Origin: Candidatus Fermentibacterota bacterium
GTDB lineage: Bacteria > Fermentibacterota > Fermentibacteria > Fermentibacterales > JCC-6
NCBI GenBank assembly: GCA_030592645.1
Contig: JAUVIR010000009.1
Location: 1 to 59,488, forward strand
Direction: 5' to 3'
DNA length: 59,488 nt
The notes below the pieces were generated by a model. That model was not told the origin of the DNA. It did no database searches and worked only from the letters and a program-made list of their open reading frames with translations. A program made the translations under genes and the position numbers. The first letter of the stretch is position 1. Every line of letters begins with the position of its first letter. Of this stretch, positions 18,833 through 35,865 are shown in pieces.

Positions 18833-20185
18833 ATGCTCGAAGAACTTTACCAGAAGGTAGTAGAGAAGGACCCGGCTCAGCCTGAGTTTCACCAGGCTGT
18901 ACAGGAAGTCCTCGAATCACTCGAGGTAGTCCTCGAGAAGCATCCCGAGTACCGCAAAGCCAGAATTCCTGAAAGAATAGTCGAACCAGAACGCGTGATC
19001 ATGTTCAGGGTTCCCTGGGTTACCGACGATGGGGATATTCAGGTTAACCGAGGTTTCAGAATTGAAATGAACAGTGCCATAGGGCCATACAAGGGCGGCC
19101 TCCGTTTTCACCCTTCGGTGAACCTGGGCATCCTGAAGTTCCTGGCCTTCGAGCAGGTTTTCAAGAACGCACTTACAACCATCCCCATGGGCGGCGGCAA
19201 AGGCGGATCGGACTTCGATCCCAAAGGCAAATCCGACATGGAAGTAATGAAGTTCTGTCAGAGCTTCATGTCTGAACTTTTCCGTCACATCGGTCCAAGT
19301 ACCGATGTACCCGCCGGTGATATCGGTGTTGGCGGAAGAGAGATCGGTTACCTCTTCGGCCAGTACAAGAAACTGAGAAACGAATGGAGCGGTGTACTTA
19401 CCGGTAAGGGTCTTCAGTACGGCGGAAGCCTGATAAGGCCTGAGGCAACCGGTTACGGCGCTGTGTATTTCGGTGAAGAGATGCTCAAAACCCGCGGAGA
19501 TAGTTACGATGGTAAGGTATGTCTTGTTTCCGGCGCAGGAAACGTTGCGCAGTACACTACAGAGAAGATCATCGAGCTCGGCGGCAAGGTAGTCACACTC
19601 TCAGATTCCGGCGGATACATCTACGATGAAGATGGTATCGATACGGACAAACTTGCCTTCGTCATGGACCTCAAGAACAACCGCAGAGGCAGGATCAGTG
19701 AATACGCCGACAAGTACCGAAGCGCTCAGTACTTCGCAATTGACCCTGAACTTGACTACAACCCGCTGTGGGATCACAAAGCCGATTGCGCCTTCCCGAG
19801 TGCCACCCAGAACGAGATCAATGCGAAGGATGCACAGAATCTAATCAACAACGGCGTCTTCCTCGTCTCCGAGGGAGCCAACATGCCTACAGTTCCAGAT
19901 GGTGTTAACATCTTTATCCAGCATAAAATTCTCTACGGTCCCGGTAAAGCCGCAAATGCAGGCGGCGTATCAACCTCCGGGCTTGAAATGGCCCAGAACG
20001 CCACTTTCTCAAGCTGGAGCCGTAAAGAAGTTGATACTAAGCTTCATAACATCATGATAAGCATTCATGCACAGGCCAGAGCCGCTGCTGAAATGTACGG
20101 AGAACCGGATAACTACGTTCTCGGTGCCAATGCAGCCGGTTTCAGTAAGGTTGCGGATGCCATGATAGCTCAGGGTGTTGTGTAG
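18833..20185 (+). CDS. gdhA: Glutamate dehydrogenase, hexameric GdhA type
   Basis: 450 aa, the usual length for the small hexameric enzyme. Substrate site GPYKGGLRFHPSV (about 83-95) and PMGGGKGGSDFDP (about 122-134, with the catalytic Lys), nucleotide-binding GAGNVAQYTTEK (about 234), and the C-terminal region NAGGVSTSGLEMAQN. It interconverts 2-oxoglutarate plus ammonium and glutamate. The closeness to GdhA of the E. coli type suggests NADP(H) use (family knowledge). It is divergent from nfnAB, which would supply or use the NADPH, so nitrogen assimilation and redox balancing are adjacent. Confidence 0.95.
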   Translation: MLEELYQKVVEKDPAQPEFHQAVQEVLESLEVVLEKHPEYRKARIPERIVEPERVIMFRVPWVTDDGDIQVNRGFRIEMNSAIGPYKGGLRFHPSVNLGILKFLAFEQVFKNALTTIPMGGGKGGSDFDPKGKSDMEVMKFCQSFMSELFRHIGPSTDVPAGDIGVGGREIGYLFGQYKKLRNEWSGVLTGKGLQYGGSLIRPEATGYGAVYFGEEMLKTRGDSYDGKVCLVSGAGNVAQYTTEKIIELGGKVVTLSDSGGYIYDEDGIDTDKLAFVMDLKNNRRGRISEYADKYRSAQYFAIDPELDYNPLWDHKADCAFPSATQNEINAKDAQNLINNGVFLVSEGANMPTVPDGVNIFIQHKILYGPGKAANAGGVSTSGLEMAQNATFSSWSRKEVDTKLHNIMISIHAQARAAAEMYGEPDNYVLGANAAGFSKVADAMIAQGVV

Positions 20186-26466: not shown

Positions 26467-27285
26467 ATGGATACTGTCCTGCCCGTATTGATCCTGGTTG
26501 TTATTGCGTTCGCAAGTGAATTCGTAGACTCATCTCTTGGCATGGGCTACGGAACAACACTTACGCCACTCCTGATCATTATGGGCTACAACCCGCTGAT
26601 AGTCGTGCCTGCAATCCTGACCTCTGAGCTTATTACCGGGGGGTTTGCAGCCTTTATGCATCACAGGGCTGGAAACGTGCAGTTCGATTTCCGGAATGAT
26701 GTGAACCACATTCTAGTGAAAAAGATGAGGTTGCTCGGTTACATTCCCCGGTCAAATGCCTCGAAAATTGCTCTTGTACTGGCAGCATGCAGCCTTGCGG
26801 GCGCTGTAATAGCAGTTTTCCTGGCCATTAACATTCCAAAAACATACCTTAAGGTGTTCATAGGCGTTATGGTTTCTTCAATGGGTGTTCTGATCCTGCT
26901 CAAACGCAATTCGAAACCGCACTTTTCATGGAAAAAAATCGTAGGGCTCGGGATTCTAGCGGCATTCAACAAAGGTCTTTCCGGGGGAGGCTACGGTCCT
27001 CTCGTTACCTCCGGGCAGATACTCTCCGGGGTGGATACTAAGAACTCAGTTGCCATAACATCACTGGCCGAAAGCTTCACCTGCGCTGTGGGAATAACAA
27101 CTTTCCTTCTGCTCGGAACTGAATTCGACTGGACAATTACGCTCGCCCTTCTTGCAGGGGCTGCAGCTTCGGTACCGTTTTCTACCAGGGTTGTTAAGAA
27201 ACTGAAAGTAAAGAATTTCACACTCATCGTCGGAACAGCCACGGTTATACTGGGGTTATTTACTTTGTATAAGGTTGTTTTCTAA
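26467..27285 (+). CDS. TauE/SafE family sulfite/organosulfonate exporter
   Basis: 272 aa with about eight hydrophobic segments and the repeated TauE/SafE halves: FVDSSLGMGYGTTLTPLLII near the N terminus and GGGYGPLVTSGQIL in the second half. The family moves sulfite, sulfonates or related anions outwards. It follows the AbrB-like gene closely and is probably co-transcribed. In this sulfur-oriented window a role in sulfite or sulfoacetate efflux is plausible (inference). Confidence 0.85.
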   Translation: MDTVLPVLILVVIAFASEFVDSSLGMGYGTTLTPLLIIMGYNPLIVVPAILTSELITGGFAAFMHHRAGNVQFDFRNDVNHILVKKMRLLGYIPRSNASKIALVLAACSLAGAVIAVFLAINIPKTYLKVFIGVMVSSMGVLILLKRNSKPHFSWKKIVGLGILAAFNKGLSGGGYGPLVTSGQILSGVDTKNSVAITSLAESFTCAVGITTFLLLGTEFDWTITLALLAGAAASVPFSTRVVKKLKVKNFTLIVGTATVILGLFTLYKVVF

Positions 27286-28855: not shown

Positions 28856-29323
28856 TCAGCTGATAGAAGCGACTGGAATATGGGTGATGAACTTTGAAGT
28901 ACAACCAATATAGAAGCCTTCCCGAAAAGGATTCTGAGCATGGTTTGAAATGCTGCCCCATTGTGTTATCCGGCGGACACAGTCGTCCTGGAAGCCTGAC
29001 AGTCCGTTATAAGCCTGGCGGATGCGCTGTAGATCTTTTCCGCTGCAGCGGCCTGATTCAAGACAAATGTCAATCATACAGAACAGTTCCTCTGCAATGA
29101 GTGATGCCGAATAGCCTGCACTGTCGAGAAGAAGCTCCAGATCGGTTTCTTCCCATAATCCCGATACTTCCCGGAGTTTATCCGGAATAACGTGCCATCG
29201 GTAATGTGCAAGACATTCAAATGGGGAATCGAACATTTCATCAGTGTATTCATTGGACCAGCTATTCTCAAGAGTATCAGACCGTGCAAAGGAATGATGC
29301 CTTACGAAGAAACTTTTTTTCAT
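28856..29323 (-). CDS. Hypothetical protein, soluble, His/Cys-containing
   Basis: 155 aa, not recognised. It begins MKKSFFVRHHSF, is largely helical, and has scattered Cys (five or more) and acidic segments. The ATG follows AAGGAGGCAGC, a strong Shine-Dalgarno, and a promoter is visible upstream, so the frame is probably real. It is monocistronic and divergent from the small TGA-containing gene. Confidence 0.55.
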   Translation of the reverse strand: MKKSFFVRHHSFARSDTLENSWSNEYTDEMFDSPFECLAHYRWHVIPDKLREVSGLWEETDLELLLDSAGYSASLIAEELFCMIDICLESGRCSGKDLQRIRQAYNGLSGFQDDCVRRITQWGSISNHAQNPFREGFYIGCTSKFITHIPVASIS

Positions 29324-29412: not shown

Positions 29413-29441
29413 TTGACATTTACATTGATTCGCTGTTAAAT
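29413..29441 (+). promoter_or_regulatory. Promoter of the TGA-interrupted small gene
   Basis: TTGACA (29413-29418), exactly 17 bp, TTAAAT (29436-29441). Transcription would start near 29448, giving a 60-nt leader before ATG 29508. Confidence 0.6.
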
Positions 29442-29507
29442 AATAGCAGGCACTTGTTAAGCAGCGATCAATGTTACTACTGCTGCAATTCGAATGGAGG
29501 TTTTTCT

Positions 29508-29756
29508 ATGAAATTCCTGGTAACAATGCCGAAGCTCTCGCCAGATGAGATAGACAGATCCTGAGCAAAGGTCATTGAAGCTTCCGGTGGAAGCGGAATG
29601 ACTATGGACCGGGCATATACGAACCGGGATGAAGGATTTGTCTGCTGCTGCTGGAACTCTCCCTCCCTAGACAGTCTCAAGGAACTTTTTGAAAAAGCCG
29701 GTGCGCCCTTCGAGAAGATGGAGCCGGTTACGGAGCACTTAGCAGCTGCATGGTGA
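29508..29756 (+). CDS. DUF4242-like small protein with in-frame TGA (candidate selenoprotein or nonsense mutant)
   Basis: 82 codons read in one frame: MKFLVTMPKLSPDEIDRS, then TGA at codon 19 (29562-29564), then AKVIEASGGSGM, FVCCCWNSPSLDSLKELF and KAGAPFEKMEPVTEH to a final TGA. The pattern (strand-helix-strand, aromatic CCW strand, APS-LxxLF helix, AGxPFE end) resembles the DUF4242/SCO4226 nickel-binding-like ferredoxin-fold family, whose members are about 80-90 aa. It has a strong promoter and a good Shine-Dalgarno (TGGAGG, 29495-29500), and coding quality is the same on both sides of the TGA. Immediately after the TGA lies a SECIS-like hairpin. Either TGA is recoded as selenocysteine, or the gene has one nonsense change. 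The antisense 116-codon frame over this region is a shadow. Confidence 0.6.
29571..29602 (+). promoter_or_regulatory. SECIS-like stem-loop after the in-frame TGA
   Basis: Lower stem GTCATT/AATGAC (29571-29576 with 29597-29602), small internal loop GAA/GG, upper stem GCTTCC/GGAAGC (29580-29585 with 29589-29594), apical loop GGT (29586-29588). The apical GGU lies 21 nt downstream of the TGA, within the range of bacterial SECIS elements, and a GU-containing apical loop is their key feature. No SelB binding can be shown from sequence alone. Confidence 0.45.
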
Positions 29757-29798
29757 TTGCTGTCCTTCATAACAGGGCCCGTCTTCAACAGGCGGGCT

Positions 29799-30542
29799 CT
29801 ATTCCCATCTGAAGTATTTTGCGGCAAAAGCGAAACCTGCTACCGTGACGCCGCACAGGACTAATATCTGAACGGGATACTCCCACAGATGCCCGCCGAG
29901 CCATAGCCCCTGCAACAACTCAATTACATGAGTAAGAGGAAGAATTTGTGAGAAGGATTTCAGGAAAGATGGGAGCATTTCCCTTGGAAGGGCAGCTCCG
30001 GAAAGAAACAACATTGGAAAATACATGACATTGGAAATTATCATACCGCTTCGGGCGGTGGGGGCCAGGCTGGCCGGAATGAACCCCAATGCGGAAATAG
30101 AGAGAGTGGACAGAACAAATGCGAAAAATACTTCGGGAATATTGCCGTAAAAACGCATTCCAAAAACAATCACTCCAGCTGCAAGGAGAAGGAGCATCCC
30201 CAAAACCGTAATTATGAATAGTGAAGATAACTCCGCTGTGAGAACCAGAAGGGGAGAAATCGGAGCAGATTTGAACCTCCTTAAAATTCCCTTCTCCCTG
30301 TAGGCAGAGATGCTTGTTGTAAGACCCGAGATACCGGTGGTTAAGATCACTATCCCTATGAAAGCGGGAACGGCGAAATCTATGTATCCAAAATTTTCAC
30401 CCGGAAATGGGTCATTACCCCAGATACTTCCGAACAGCATCATAAGCAGCAGCGGGAATATCAGTGTAAAGAAGAAGCCTGAAGGTTCCCTCAGGTAAAG
30501 GACAAACTCCATTCGTGTCAGGTTAAAATACCGCTTAAACAT
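29799..30542 (-). CDS. ABC-2 type transporter permease (DrrB/YhhJ-like)
   Basis: 247 aa with six hydrophobic segments and the ABC-2 membrane domain pattern (REPSGFFFTLIFPLLLMMLFG at the N terminus, ISAYREKGILRRFKSAP, and the late LPLTHVIELLQGLW). It pairs with the ATPase whose gene ends 1 bp upstream. Drug, lipid or polysaccharide export is typical of the family. Confidence 0.87.
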   Translation of the reverse strand: MFKRYFNLTRMEFVLYLREPSGFFFTLIFPLLLMMLFGSIWGNDPFPGENFGYIDFAVPAFIGIVILTTGISGLTTSISAYREKGILRRFKSAPISPLLVLTAELSSLFIITVLGMLLLLAAGVIVFGMRFYGNIPEVFFAFVLSTLSISALGFIPASLAPTARSGMIISNVMYFPMLFLSGAALPREMLPSFLKSFSQILPLTHVIELLQGLWLGGHLWEYPVQILVLCGVTVAGFAFAAKYFRWE

Positions 30543-33010: not shown

Positions 33011-33571
33011 TCATAATCCAGCATTTTCCAGAAGGAGGAGTACGGCTGCTAAAATCAGGCAGCCGGGTATCACTACCAGCCATGGATTGACATTCAGAAT
33101 TTCCGGGATTGTCTTCGCCCCGAAATCACCTTTCTGAAGAATGCCGTTTTTAAGCCCGGGGTAGATAGAAGCGTACAGACCGGACCCGATCAGAATACCC
33201 GCTACACCTCCGAGCAATGCGTCCAGAGAACCTGTCCCAACAGCACCCGATACGGTTCCGGGACAGTAACCGAGAGTCGCGAAACCGACACCGAAGATAA
33301 GGCCGCCAACCGCTGATGATCCGAGTGATCCGGGTTTGGGATGAAGTTTGACAAGACCGGCGCTTTTTAGAGCGTAAATGCCCAGAGAACCGGTGATAAC
33401 TGCTGACAGCATAACCTTCACAACCGTGAAATCCTTCAGAAGAAGCTGACCGATAATGACATCGTAATCGGTGACTCCTCCCTTCTGCAGCAGAAAGCCG
33501 AATGCTACCCCGCAGAGCAGAGCAATAGCGAACTGCAGACCTCTTTTCGCATGCAGTTCATCGAGGGTCAT
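33011..33571 (-). CDS. YeeE/YedE-type sulfur transporter, C-terminal half (DUF6691)
   Basis: 186 aa membrane protein with four to five hydrophobic segments and the family motif GFATLGYCPGTVSGAVGTGS, whose Cys is thought to relay sulfur anions in the YeeE/TsuA family. It overlaps the preceding YeeE/YedE half by 4 bp, so the two are co-translated and probably form one channel. It belongs to the three-gene sulfur operon with the MBL/rhodanese protein. Confidence 0.88.
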   Translation of the reverse strand: MTLDELHAKRGLQFAIALLCGVAFGFLLQKGGVTDYDVIIGQLLLKDFTVVKVMLSAVITGSLGIYALKSAGLVKLHPKPGSLGSSAVGGLIFGVGFATLGYCPGTVSGAVGTGSLDALLGGVAGILIGSGLYASIYPGLKNGILQKGDFGAKTIPEILNVNPWLVVIPGCLILAAVLLLLENAGL

Positions 33572-34101
33572 GATGCACCTCCTGCAAACACTTCAAATAT
33601 CAGCAGTGCTGTGACAATACCGCCTGCAAAGAAACATATTGCTGCTATCCAGCTGCTGAGGGTCCATTGAAGTGTTCCACTTATTCCGTGGCCGCTTGTA
33701 CATCCTCCCGCCCATCTGGAACCGAAACCCATTACAATACCTCCTGCAAGAGCAACCAGGAGTCTGAGGATCGGTGTGTCTCCGAAGTAAGCAGTCCAGA
33801 GCGAATGTTCAATGCTTATTCTGAAGGAACCTGAGAGGATGCTGGATATGAACGCCCCGGCAAACACGCCCAGAACAAGTATCCATTCCCAGTCAATTTC
33901 AGGAACGAACTCCATATAGTAGGGTTTTTCCTTTACCTTATCACCTCTGAACAGCTTCTCGATCATTCCGCTCGTTCTGGCAAAAGCAGTAGAACAGCCG
34001 ATGGCTTTGTTTGAAAGGAGAAAAGTCACCCAGCTGAGAACACCAATACCGGCCCCAACCAGATATGGAGACCATCTTCCCGCTTCAAGCCAGTTCATCA
34101 A
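33568..34101 (-). CDS. YeeE/YedE-type sulfur transporter, N-terminal half
   Basis: 177 aa with about five membrane segments. Conserved Cys motifs AIGCSTAFAR and RWAGGCTSGHGISG match the sulfur-transport (DUF395) repeat. It overlaps the MBL/rhodanese gene upstream and the second half-transporter downstream by 4 bp each. The split arrangement is common in anaerobes and contrasts with the fused protein at 41466-42656. Confidence 0.88.
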   Translation of the reverse strand: MMNWLEAGRWSPYLVGAGIGVLSWVTFLLSNKAIGCSTAFARTSGMIEKLFRGDKVKEKPYYMEFVPEIDWEWILVLGVFAGAFISSILSGSFRISIEHSLWTAYFGDTPILRLLVALAGGIVMGFGSRWAGGCTSGHGISGTLQWTLSSWIAAICFFAGGIVTALLIFEVFAGGAS

Positions 34102-35558
34102 TGCTTATCCACTCCGGTTTTCGCCGTGACCCGGTCGTGTAAATTGCCCGTGAGCAGTCGCGGACCATGAGGTATGGAACACATCAGGCATGCAGGGGCA
34201 AGAGCTGCCGAATTGAACCCTTTCATACCTCCGGAAATGTTCTGAAGCTTTCTGAATCCGTTAGTCAGGAGGATACTCCCGGCCAGAGTTGATCTGTATC
34301 CGGTGCTGCATACAAGAAGGGTCTCCGAATCCTGGTCCAGCTCCCGAAAGCGGGTCCTCAGATCCGGTGCAGGGATGTTTACAGCACCATCGATGTGTGA
34401 ATTGTCATACTCAGCGGAAGATCGCACATCCAGTATCAGACCGTTACTGCATGACCTGATCACAAGGTCGGCCTCAAGTACCGACAATTGAGGTAAATGG
34501 GCAGCCGGAAGACCTGCAAGAGACCACGCAAACATACCTCCGTCCAGGTATCCCTTCACCCTGTCAAGTCCTACTCTTCTGAGCCATAAGGTTGTGTCCG
34601 ATACCTCAGAGAGGCTCGAAGCAACGAGGTAGATATCAGCATCAGGGGGGAGAACCCAACCGGCAAAGACGGGGATATTCCCCTCGAAGTCAATACTTAC
34701 AGCATTCGGTATATGCTGTCCGCCGAAGGCATCGTACCTCCGTACATCCAATACAATTGAATTAGGGCCACCGATGGCCTTTCTGAATTCTTCCGGCTTC
34801 ATCGGTTCAGGCTCCCCGAGGGAGGAAATTGTTGCAGATCCTGCTCTGTTGAACGCACTGCATCTGGAAAAATGATCAGGTGCCGGAGGCATTCCGGTGG
34901 TAAGGGAATGAATAAAAGCATCCCTGTCTTCGATCTGCAGGGCGGCATTGTACTTGCGTTCGTAGCCTATTGTACTGCGCCATTTGGAGCCCATAGCCCT
35001 GCCGCACAGGGATCCCGCGCCGTGCGCAGGATATACTTCGCAGAAATCCGGCAGTTCCATGAGTTTTCTCAAGCTGTCATATAAACGGGATGCAAGCTCC
35101 TGCGCCATGTCCGGGAACAGGTCCGGCCGACCCACATCCCCGACAAATAATGTATCTCCGCAGAATACACCGGCTGGATCCGGCCCTCTGCCTGTATCAG
35201 ATACTATGTAACTTACATGTTCCGGTGTATGCCCCGGAGTCTCTATTACATCTATTTTCATCTCCTCAAGCAGGAAACTGTCACCCTCGGAAACGGGTAA
35301 ATGGTCGAATGCACAGCATGCCAATGCCGGCACAACCACCGAAGCCCCTGTCAAGGCTGCCAGATCCATGTGACCAGACACGAAATCCGCATGCAGATGG
35401 GTCAGGAGAACATGAGTTATTTTCAGATCATGGTCCGCAGCTGCCCTGATGTAACCGCCGACATCCCTTGAGGGATCGATAACAGCGCAGGTTCTGTTTC
35501 CCGCCAGCATATATGAACTATGGGCGAGTTTAGGCATGAAAAAATGAACCAGCAGCAT
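34098..35558 (-). CDS. Metallo-beta-lactamase/double-rhodanese fusion (persulfide dioxygenase-like)
   Basis: 486 aa. The MBL domain (1-240) has the metal motif THLHADFVSGH and later TPGHTPEH, CGDTLFVGDVGRPDL and YPAHGAGS, as in ETHE1/BlhA-type persulfide enzymes. Two rhodanese domains follow. The first (about 270-370) lacks a catalytic Cys, its loop being LVASSLSE. The second (about 385-470) has CSTGYRS and should be active. It probably handles glutathione-like persulfide or sulfane sulfur delivered by the coupled YeeE/YedE transporter. ATG 35558 follows GGAG at good spacing, whereas an upstream start would add 25 unrelated residues. O2-using dioxygenase activity seems odd in an anaerobe, so hydrolase or transferase use is possible. 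Confidence 0.82.
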   Translation of the reverse strand: MLLVHFFMPKLAHSSYMLAGNRTCAVIDPSRDVGGYIRAAADHDLKITHVLLTHLHADFVSGHMDLAALTGASVVVPALACCAFDHLPVSEGDSFLLEEMKIDVIETPGHTPEHVSYIVSDTGRGPDPAGVFCGDTLFVGDVGRPDLFPDMAQELASRLYDSLRKLMELPDFCEVYPAHGAGSLCGRAMGSKWRSTIGYERKYNAALQIEDRDAFIHSLTTGMPPAPDHFSRCSAFNRAGSATISSLGEPEPMKPEEFRKAIGGPNSIVLDVRRYDAFGGQHIPNAVSIDFEGNIPVFAGWVLPPDADIYLVASSLSEVSDTTLWLRRVGLDRVKGYLDGGMFAWSLAGLPAAHLPQLSVLEADLVIRSCSNGLILDVRSSAEYDNSHIDGAVNIPAPDLRTRFRELDQDSETLLVCSTGYRSTLAGSILLTNGFRKLQNISGGMKGFNSAALAPACLMCSIPHGPRLLTGNLHDRVTAKTGVDKH

Positions 35559-35865
35559 TTTCAGTCTCCGTTCCTTCAGAACAGTAAGTGAATGCAGCAG
35601 TAACACTGTAACCAGTGACTGGAAAATACCCAAGAAACGGTGTGTCCGTCAAATCTACCCTGCATCATCCAGTCAACACTTTGACGCATGCCGGTCATCT
35701 GAGGCAGGGTATCCGCTTTTCGGAAATCAGCAGATTTATTGATGCGGAACAAATTGTGTTGAAGTAGTGTTTGTAACGTGTTATGATATTTACGGAATTT
35801 ACTACCTCATCAGCTGACACTCCGCATGTGTCAGTGATCACGAATGAACATGGAAGGCAGTGTAA
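35559..35865 (+). promoter_or_regulatory. Divergent intergenic region with M6 protease promoter and leader hairpin
   Basis: 307 bp. A plus-strand promoter is clear: TTGAAG (35759-35764), 17 bp, TATGAT (35782-35787). The leader holds a perfect inverted repeat CTGACAC-N7-GTGTCAG (35814-35834), an operator or RNA hairpin. No gene is seen in the region. Confidence 0.6.

Follow-up and report, generated by a model that had tools for sequence, protein, structure and literature searches.

The window that we analysed, a stretch of 59,488 nucleotides from a Candidatus Fermentibacterota bacterium, carries a small gene on its forward strand (29508-29756) whose frame reads directly as MKFLVTMPKLSPDEIDRS-TGA-AKVIEASGGSGMTMDRAYTNRDEGFVCCCWNSPSLDSLKELFEKAGAPFEKMEPVTEHLAAAW-TGA. 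A previous sequence-only reading of this DNA had described the open reading frame, the TGA at codon 19, a Shine-Dalgarno sequence, a run of cysteines at positions 46-47-48 and a hairpin, and all of these lie where it had placed them (Table 1). The promoter it proposed held up in part: TTGACA is present at 29413-29418, as it is in homologs L002-L004, but a good -10 box is lacking; TTAAAT is a poor one, and a consensus promoter scan called no forward-strand promoter at this gene. A GC-rich hairpin without a T-run follows the terminal TGA (at about 29774-29806). That TGA serves elsewhere as an ordinary stop, also proposed from the sequence, was confirmed in several neighbouring genes and at the end of the gene itself.

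The gene neighbourhood is not conserved between species, which was counted against the interpretation given below, and because it changes from one species to another, we dropped function inferred from gene neighbours. The divergently oriented gene at 28856-29323 (reverse strand) encodes a 155-aa protein with no Pfam match; the nearest relative, L002, is the only one to retain it, and L003 and L004 have other genes in its place. Some kilobases off lies a sulphur-handling neighbourhood, consisting of two half-size sulphur/thiosulfate transport proteins (PF04143, TsuA/YedE-like) that adjoin a metallo-beta-lactamase/rhodanese fusion (33011-35633, reverse strand), together with a TauE/SafE exporter (26467-27285).

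Table 1. Features of the candidate selenoprotein gene and of the selenocysteine machinery in the same genome
Feature	Position	Strand	Remarks
Possible promoter: TTGACA, 17-nt spacer, weak -10 TTAAAT	29413-29441	+	read directly
Shine-Dalgarno GGAGG	29496-29500	+	7 nt before ATG; GGAGG or a close variant upstream of the start in all homologs
Probable selenoprotein gene	29508-29756	+	82 aa with Sec19 (MKFLVTMPKLSPDEIDRSU...); predicted SCO4226-like ferredoxin fold
In-frame TGA, codon 19	29562-29564	+	TGA in 11 of 11 distinct homologs; Sec machinery in genome
Candidate SECIS hairpin	29570-29603	+	lower stem 29570-29576/29597-29603, upper stem 29580-29585/29589-29594, apical loop GGU 29586-29588
Cys46-Cys47-Cys48 (TGC TGC TGC)	29643-29651	+	Cys47 is the family-wide cysteine and a possible partner of Sec19
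Terminal TGA stop	29754-29756	+	read directly
SelA	C29:6287-7375		adjoins SelB
SelB	C29:7438-9303		adjoins SelA
SelD	G000:C25:33494-34420		own in-frame TGA
tRNA-Sec, anticodon TCA	C58:4859-4951

Conservation of the TGA and of the hairpin behind it

Scanning the species genomes of Bacteria and Archaea gave five relatives, each of them from Candidatus Fermentibacteria (Aegiribacteria included), and a profile search of 42 Fermentibacterota genomes gave 11 matches. Both searches were pooled and duplicates removed, leaving 11 distinct sequences that span five genera and two families of Fermentibacterota and share 44-94% pairwise identity (the least similar pair, 44% over 79 residues). The profile search gave no match in 31 of the 42 genomes, tblastn detected no homologs among plasmids or phages, and IMG/VR likewise had none. 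The gene was found in one phylum only (11 of 42 genomes), which we counted against selenocysteine.

Codon 19 was TGA in every ortholog found (11 of 11), in frames that are otherwise open; none had a sense codon, TAA or TAG at this position. The 11 distinct sequences come from independent MAGs and all retain the TGA, which excludes a sequencing error. Purifying selection was similar on both sides of the TGA, with a pN/pS of 0.36 before it and 0.39 after it (codons 34-79), and the forward frame had the best pN/pS of the six frames, the other five being worse.

The hairpin downstream of codon 19 has 13 pairs, seven in the lower and six in the upper stem, with a GGU loop 21 nt 3′ of the TGA and a minimum free energy (MFE) of -16.5 kcal/mol; the two-part stem, the loop and its distance agree with the sequence-only reading, but not the 12 bp it had counted. 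None of 200 dinucleotide shuffles was as stable (z -4.0), and the hairpin also stood out from synonymous recodings of the same peptide (z -3.7). In two of the 11 homologs, L006 and L027, it was not clearly stronger than such recodings, a result that we counted against selenocysteine. Among the 2441 TGAs of the window, eight were followed by an apical stem of 6 bp or more and an MFE this low, and of these eight only the TGA of codon 19 lies inside a readable frame. The runner-up TGA with a hairpin in a readable frame is at window position 18919 on the reverse strand (-14.6 kcal/mol). Published limits of the bSECIS model are a loop of 3-9 nt with G in its first two positions, an upper stem of 4-16 bp, a distance of 16-37 nt from the UGA and an MFE of at most -7.5 (PMC13188914). 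The present hairpin, with its 3-nt loop and upper stem of 6 bp, falls inside all of them and is kept in the homologs. An Rfam search of the window matched no SECIS, and near the gene it gave only a chance match below cut-off; the SECIS_1 model matched nowhere, controls included, and is therefore uninformative.

The apical stem GCTTCC/GGAAGC is invariant in the homologs, synonymous positions included. Each of its codons 25, 26, 28 and 29 (GCT TCC ... GGA AGC) was identical in 55 of 55 pairs, while in the intervening loop codon the third base is free to vary. Synonymous identity was 0.81 at codons 20-33 versus 0.57 elsewhere, and pS was 0.29 versus 0.64-0.67, indicating that synonymous change is suppressed where the hairpin lies. 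Covariation was modest: two pairs of the lower stem have changed on both sides (two cells), and sliding the partners destroys the fit. The slightness of this signal was also counted against selenocysteine.

The machinery for selenocysteine insertion was found in full in this genome, with selA, selB, selD and tRNA-Sec all present (Table 1), and it is widespread in Fermentibacterota. The selD gene likewise has a hairpin behind its TGA, with a 3-nt, G-rich loop (GGC) at a distance of 22 nt, a geometry nearly that of the codon-19 hairpin; SelD is otherwise an unrelated protein and a long-known selenoprotein. Several Fermentibacterota have two SelD copies (L044, at G003:C20:5257-6180, L045 and L046); most have an in-frame TGA, but one copy in G003 has none.

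Taken from comparative sequence evidence, the TGA at codon 19 is very probably read as selenocysteine in an 82-aa protein, a reading supported by every check proposed from the sequence that we ran, except the one for a cysteine homolog. Incorporation would be by the standard machinery: the ribosome would reach the UGA, SelB with Sec-tRNA-Sec would bind the hairpin just 3′ of it, the one with the GGU apical loop, and selenocysteine would go in at codon 19 in place of termination.

Three other accounts of the locus have to be weighed against this one. The TGA might be a real stop that ends an 18-aa leader peptide, with re-initiation at ATG31 or ATG33 yielding a protein of 50-52 aa; GGAAGCGG, just 5′ of ATG31, could serve as a Shine-Dalgarno sequence, and a 52-aa ORF does appear in the mechanical ORF list. 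However, strand 1 and helix 1, encoded before and across the TGA, are required for the domain, the codons on either side of the TGA evolve as a single frame, the stop is always TGA and never TAA or TAG, and ATG31 is CTG in homolog L028, so that we regard re-initiation as very improbable. Hardly any weight falls on a TGA that stands for some other amino acid, or on a codon that has decayed or was mis-sequenced. Although no cysteine homologs were found that would show a Cys/Sec requirement, TGA ends neighbouring genes, the genome has a tRNA-Sec with a TCA anticodon, and the TGA is conserved across independent assemblies, with purifying selection after it. Finally, a 116-aa ORF on the reverse strand (29477-29827) overlaps the whole gene and is free of stops in the window, as in several homologs, but it has stops in three of the 11 homologs, a weaker pN/pS (0.48 versus 0.39 for the forward frame) and a product with no Pfam match, whereas that of the forward frame matches both PF14026 and the fold of SCO4226; it is almost certainly a shadow of the forward frame, and not the reverse.

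A divergent SCO4226-like protein with no cysteine counterpart found

As judged from profile match and predicted fold, the product is a divergent, distant SCO4226-like (PF14026/DUF4242) protein with a ferredoxin-like fold. The PF14026 match spans the TGA (residues 9-73); the window protein scores 25.6 bits, against a gathering cut-off of 28.5, and four orthologs score above this cut-off (29.4-37.7 bits). An AlphaFold2 model built from six input sequences (mean pLDDT 79) predicts strands at residues 2-6, 33-39, 44-50 and 70-73 and helices at 12-26 and 54-64. Its best solved Foldseek match is SCO4226 of Streptomyces coelicolor (PF14026; PDB 4oi3/4oi6), with an E-value of 2.6e-5 and a TM score of 0.75 for 4oi6. 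The two proteins are alike in length (82 aa), in fold and in having the family-wide cysteine at the position of Cys47, and the profile match is weak but consistent. The window protein differs in carrying Sec within helix 1 and three consecutive cysteines (46-48), and in lacking the Ni-1 ligands of SCO4226: Asn39, Glu42 and Glu72 stand in place of Asp43, Ser46 and His76. Identity in the structural alignment is about 16%, and the score against NF033706, the equivalog for SCO4226 nickel-binding proteins, is 21.2 bits versus a cut-off of 125, so that the protein is not a member. The cysteine triplet, which the sequence-only reading had singled out, is present in the window protein but is not a family trait, the sole invariant cysteine being Cys47.

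The closest non-selenium relatives that we found are short DUF4242-like proteins in the phylum of G211 (L062, L087-L091; MPKFLAFH...TARWVRTYYHKDSGRRICEWEAPS). From residue 32-35 (strand 2) onwards their alignment is gap-free up to the end, and Arg35, Tyr37, Cys47 and Trp49 are shared. At the Sec position they have, by the likely alignment, Tyr or Trp, with no Cys, no TGA and no in-frame stop.

Selenoproteins usually have cysteine homologs (PMC12013277, PMC9312934). No homolog with Cys for Sec was found in the 42 Fermentibacterota genomes, nor, with the alignment of helix 1 uncertain in each case, among plasmid DUF4242 proteins, 385 relatives across Bacteria or 395 genomes of another phylum. 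Distant relatives carry His, Tyr, Trp, Ala or Ser in roughly the Sec19 column, where alignment is again uncertain, and this too was counted against selenocysteine. To find no Cys version is unusual for a selenoprotein. The KSC motif of long-type DUF4242 proteins initially resembled a Cys/Sec pair; it lies approximately a helical turn beyond that position, however, and could not be aligned with it, and we therefore claim no Cys pair. Either closer Cys relatives exist in unsampled genomes, or selenocysteine arose here without cysteine.

A possible partner for Sec19

In the predicted structure, Sec19 sits in the middle of helix 1, on the same face as Ile15 and Val22/Ile23, and because of these neighbours it probably packs against the sheet. 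In SCO4226, Tyr50 and Leu52, which flank the family cysteine, face the dimer interface (PMC4186839), and for this reason Cys47 should face the helices. Since Sec19 would pack on the sheet where Cys47 should point, a Sec19-Cys47 pair is plausible. Based on this modelled arrangement, Sec19 most likely works together with Cys47, either as a reversible Se-S pair or as joint ligands of a soft metal, and the protein would be a small, stand-alone one for redox chemistry or metal handling. The redox form in particular, a Sec19-Cys47 Se-S pair, has somewhat under an even chance.

The main alternative accepts the selenoprotein but makes Sec19 a metal ligand, and not one half of a Sec/Cys redox pair. It arises because an ungapped extension of the SCO4226 alignment sets Sec19 on His23, a Ni-2 ligand in that protein (PMC4186839), which Sec19 would replace; cysteines 46-48 could join it as ligands. 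However, the Ni-1 ligands are replaced, as described above, and the helix-1 alignment is not significant alone and falls outside the significant local alignment. We consider this role rather unlikely. A scenario that combines these elements is also tentative, and we think it improbable: selenocysteine, without a cysteine predecessor, would have appeared at the position of the SCO4226 nickel-ligand His, facing an ancestral cysteine, and a metal-binding protein of ferredoxin fold would in this way have gained a new site for redox chemistry or for a soft metal.

Whichever role Sec19 has, the protein very probably represents a new selenoprotein family, as the sequence-only reading had proposed for the case that the TGA is read as selenocysteine. 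An inventory of May 2026 lists 119 prokaryotic selenoprotein families and has no DUF4242/PF14026 or SCO4226-like entry (PMC13188914). No selenoprotein model of NCBIfam 20.0 matched the window protein, and among the open papers searched none has both “DUF4242” and “selenoprotein”, or both “Fermentibacter” and “selenocysteine”; an unlisted earlier mention may exist in subscription papers or GenBank annotation. The family shares with the 119 known ones the UGA, the bSECIS hairpin, and SelA, SelB, SelD and tRNA-Sec. Most known bacterial selenoprotein families have Cys homologs, and the majority of the characterised ones have a thioredoxin-like fold.

The finding would thus add the SCO4226/DUF4242 ferredoxin-like fold, so far unlisted, to those of prokaryotic selenoproteins. 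Standard annotation would end the gene at codon 19 or begin it at codon 31, and the domain would be lost. Searches for Cys/Sec pairs, the route to many selenoprotein discoveries, would miss the family because no Cys version was found, and the family bears in this way on the question of whether selenocysteine arises without a cysteine ancestor.
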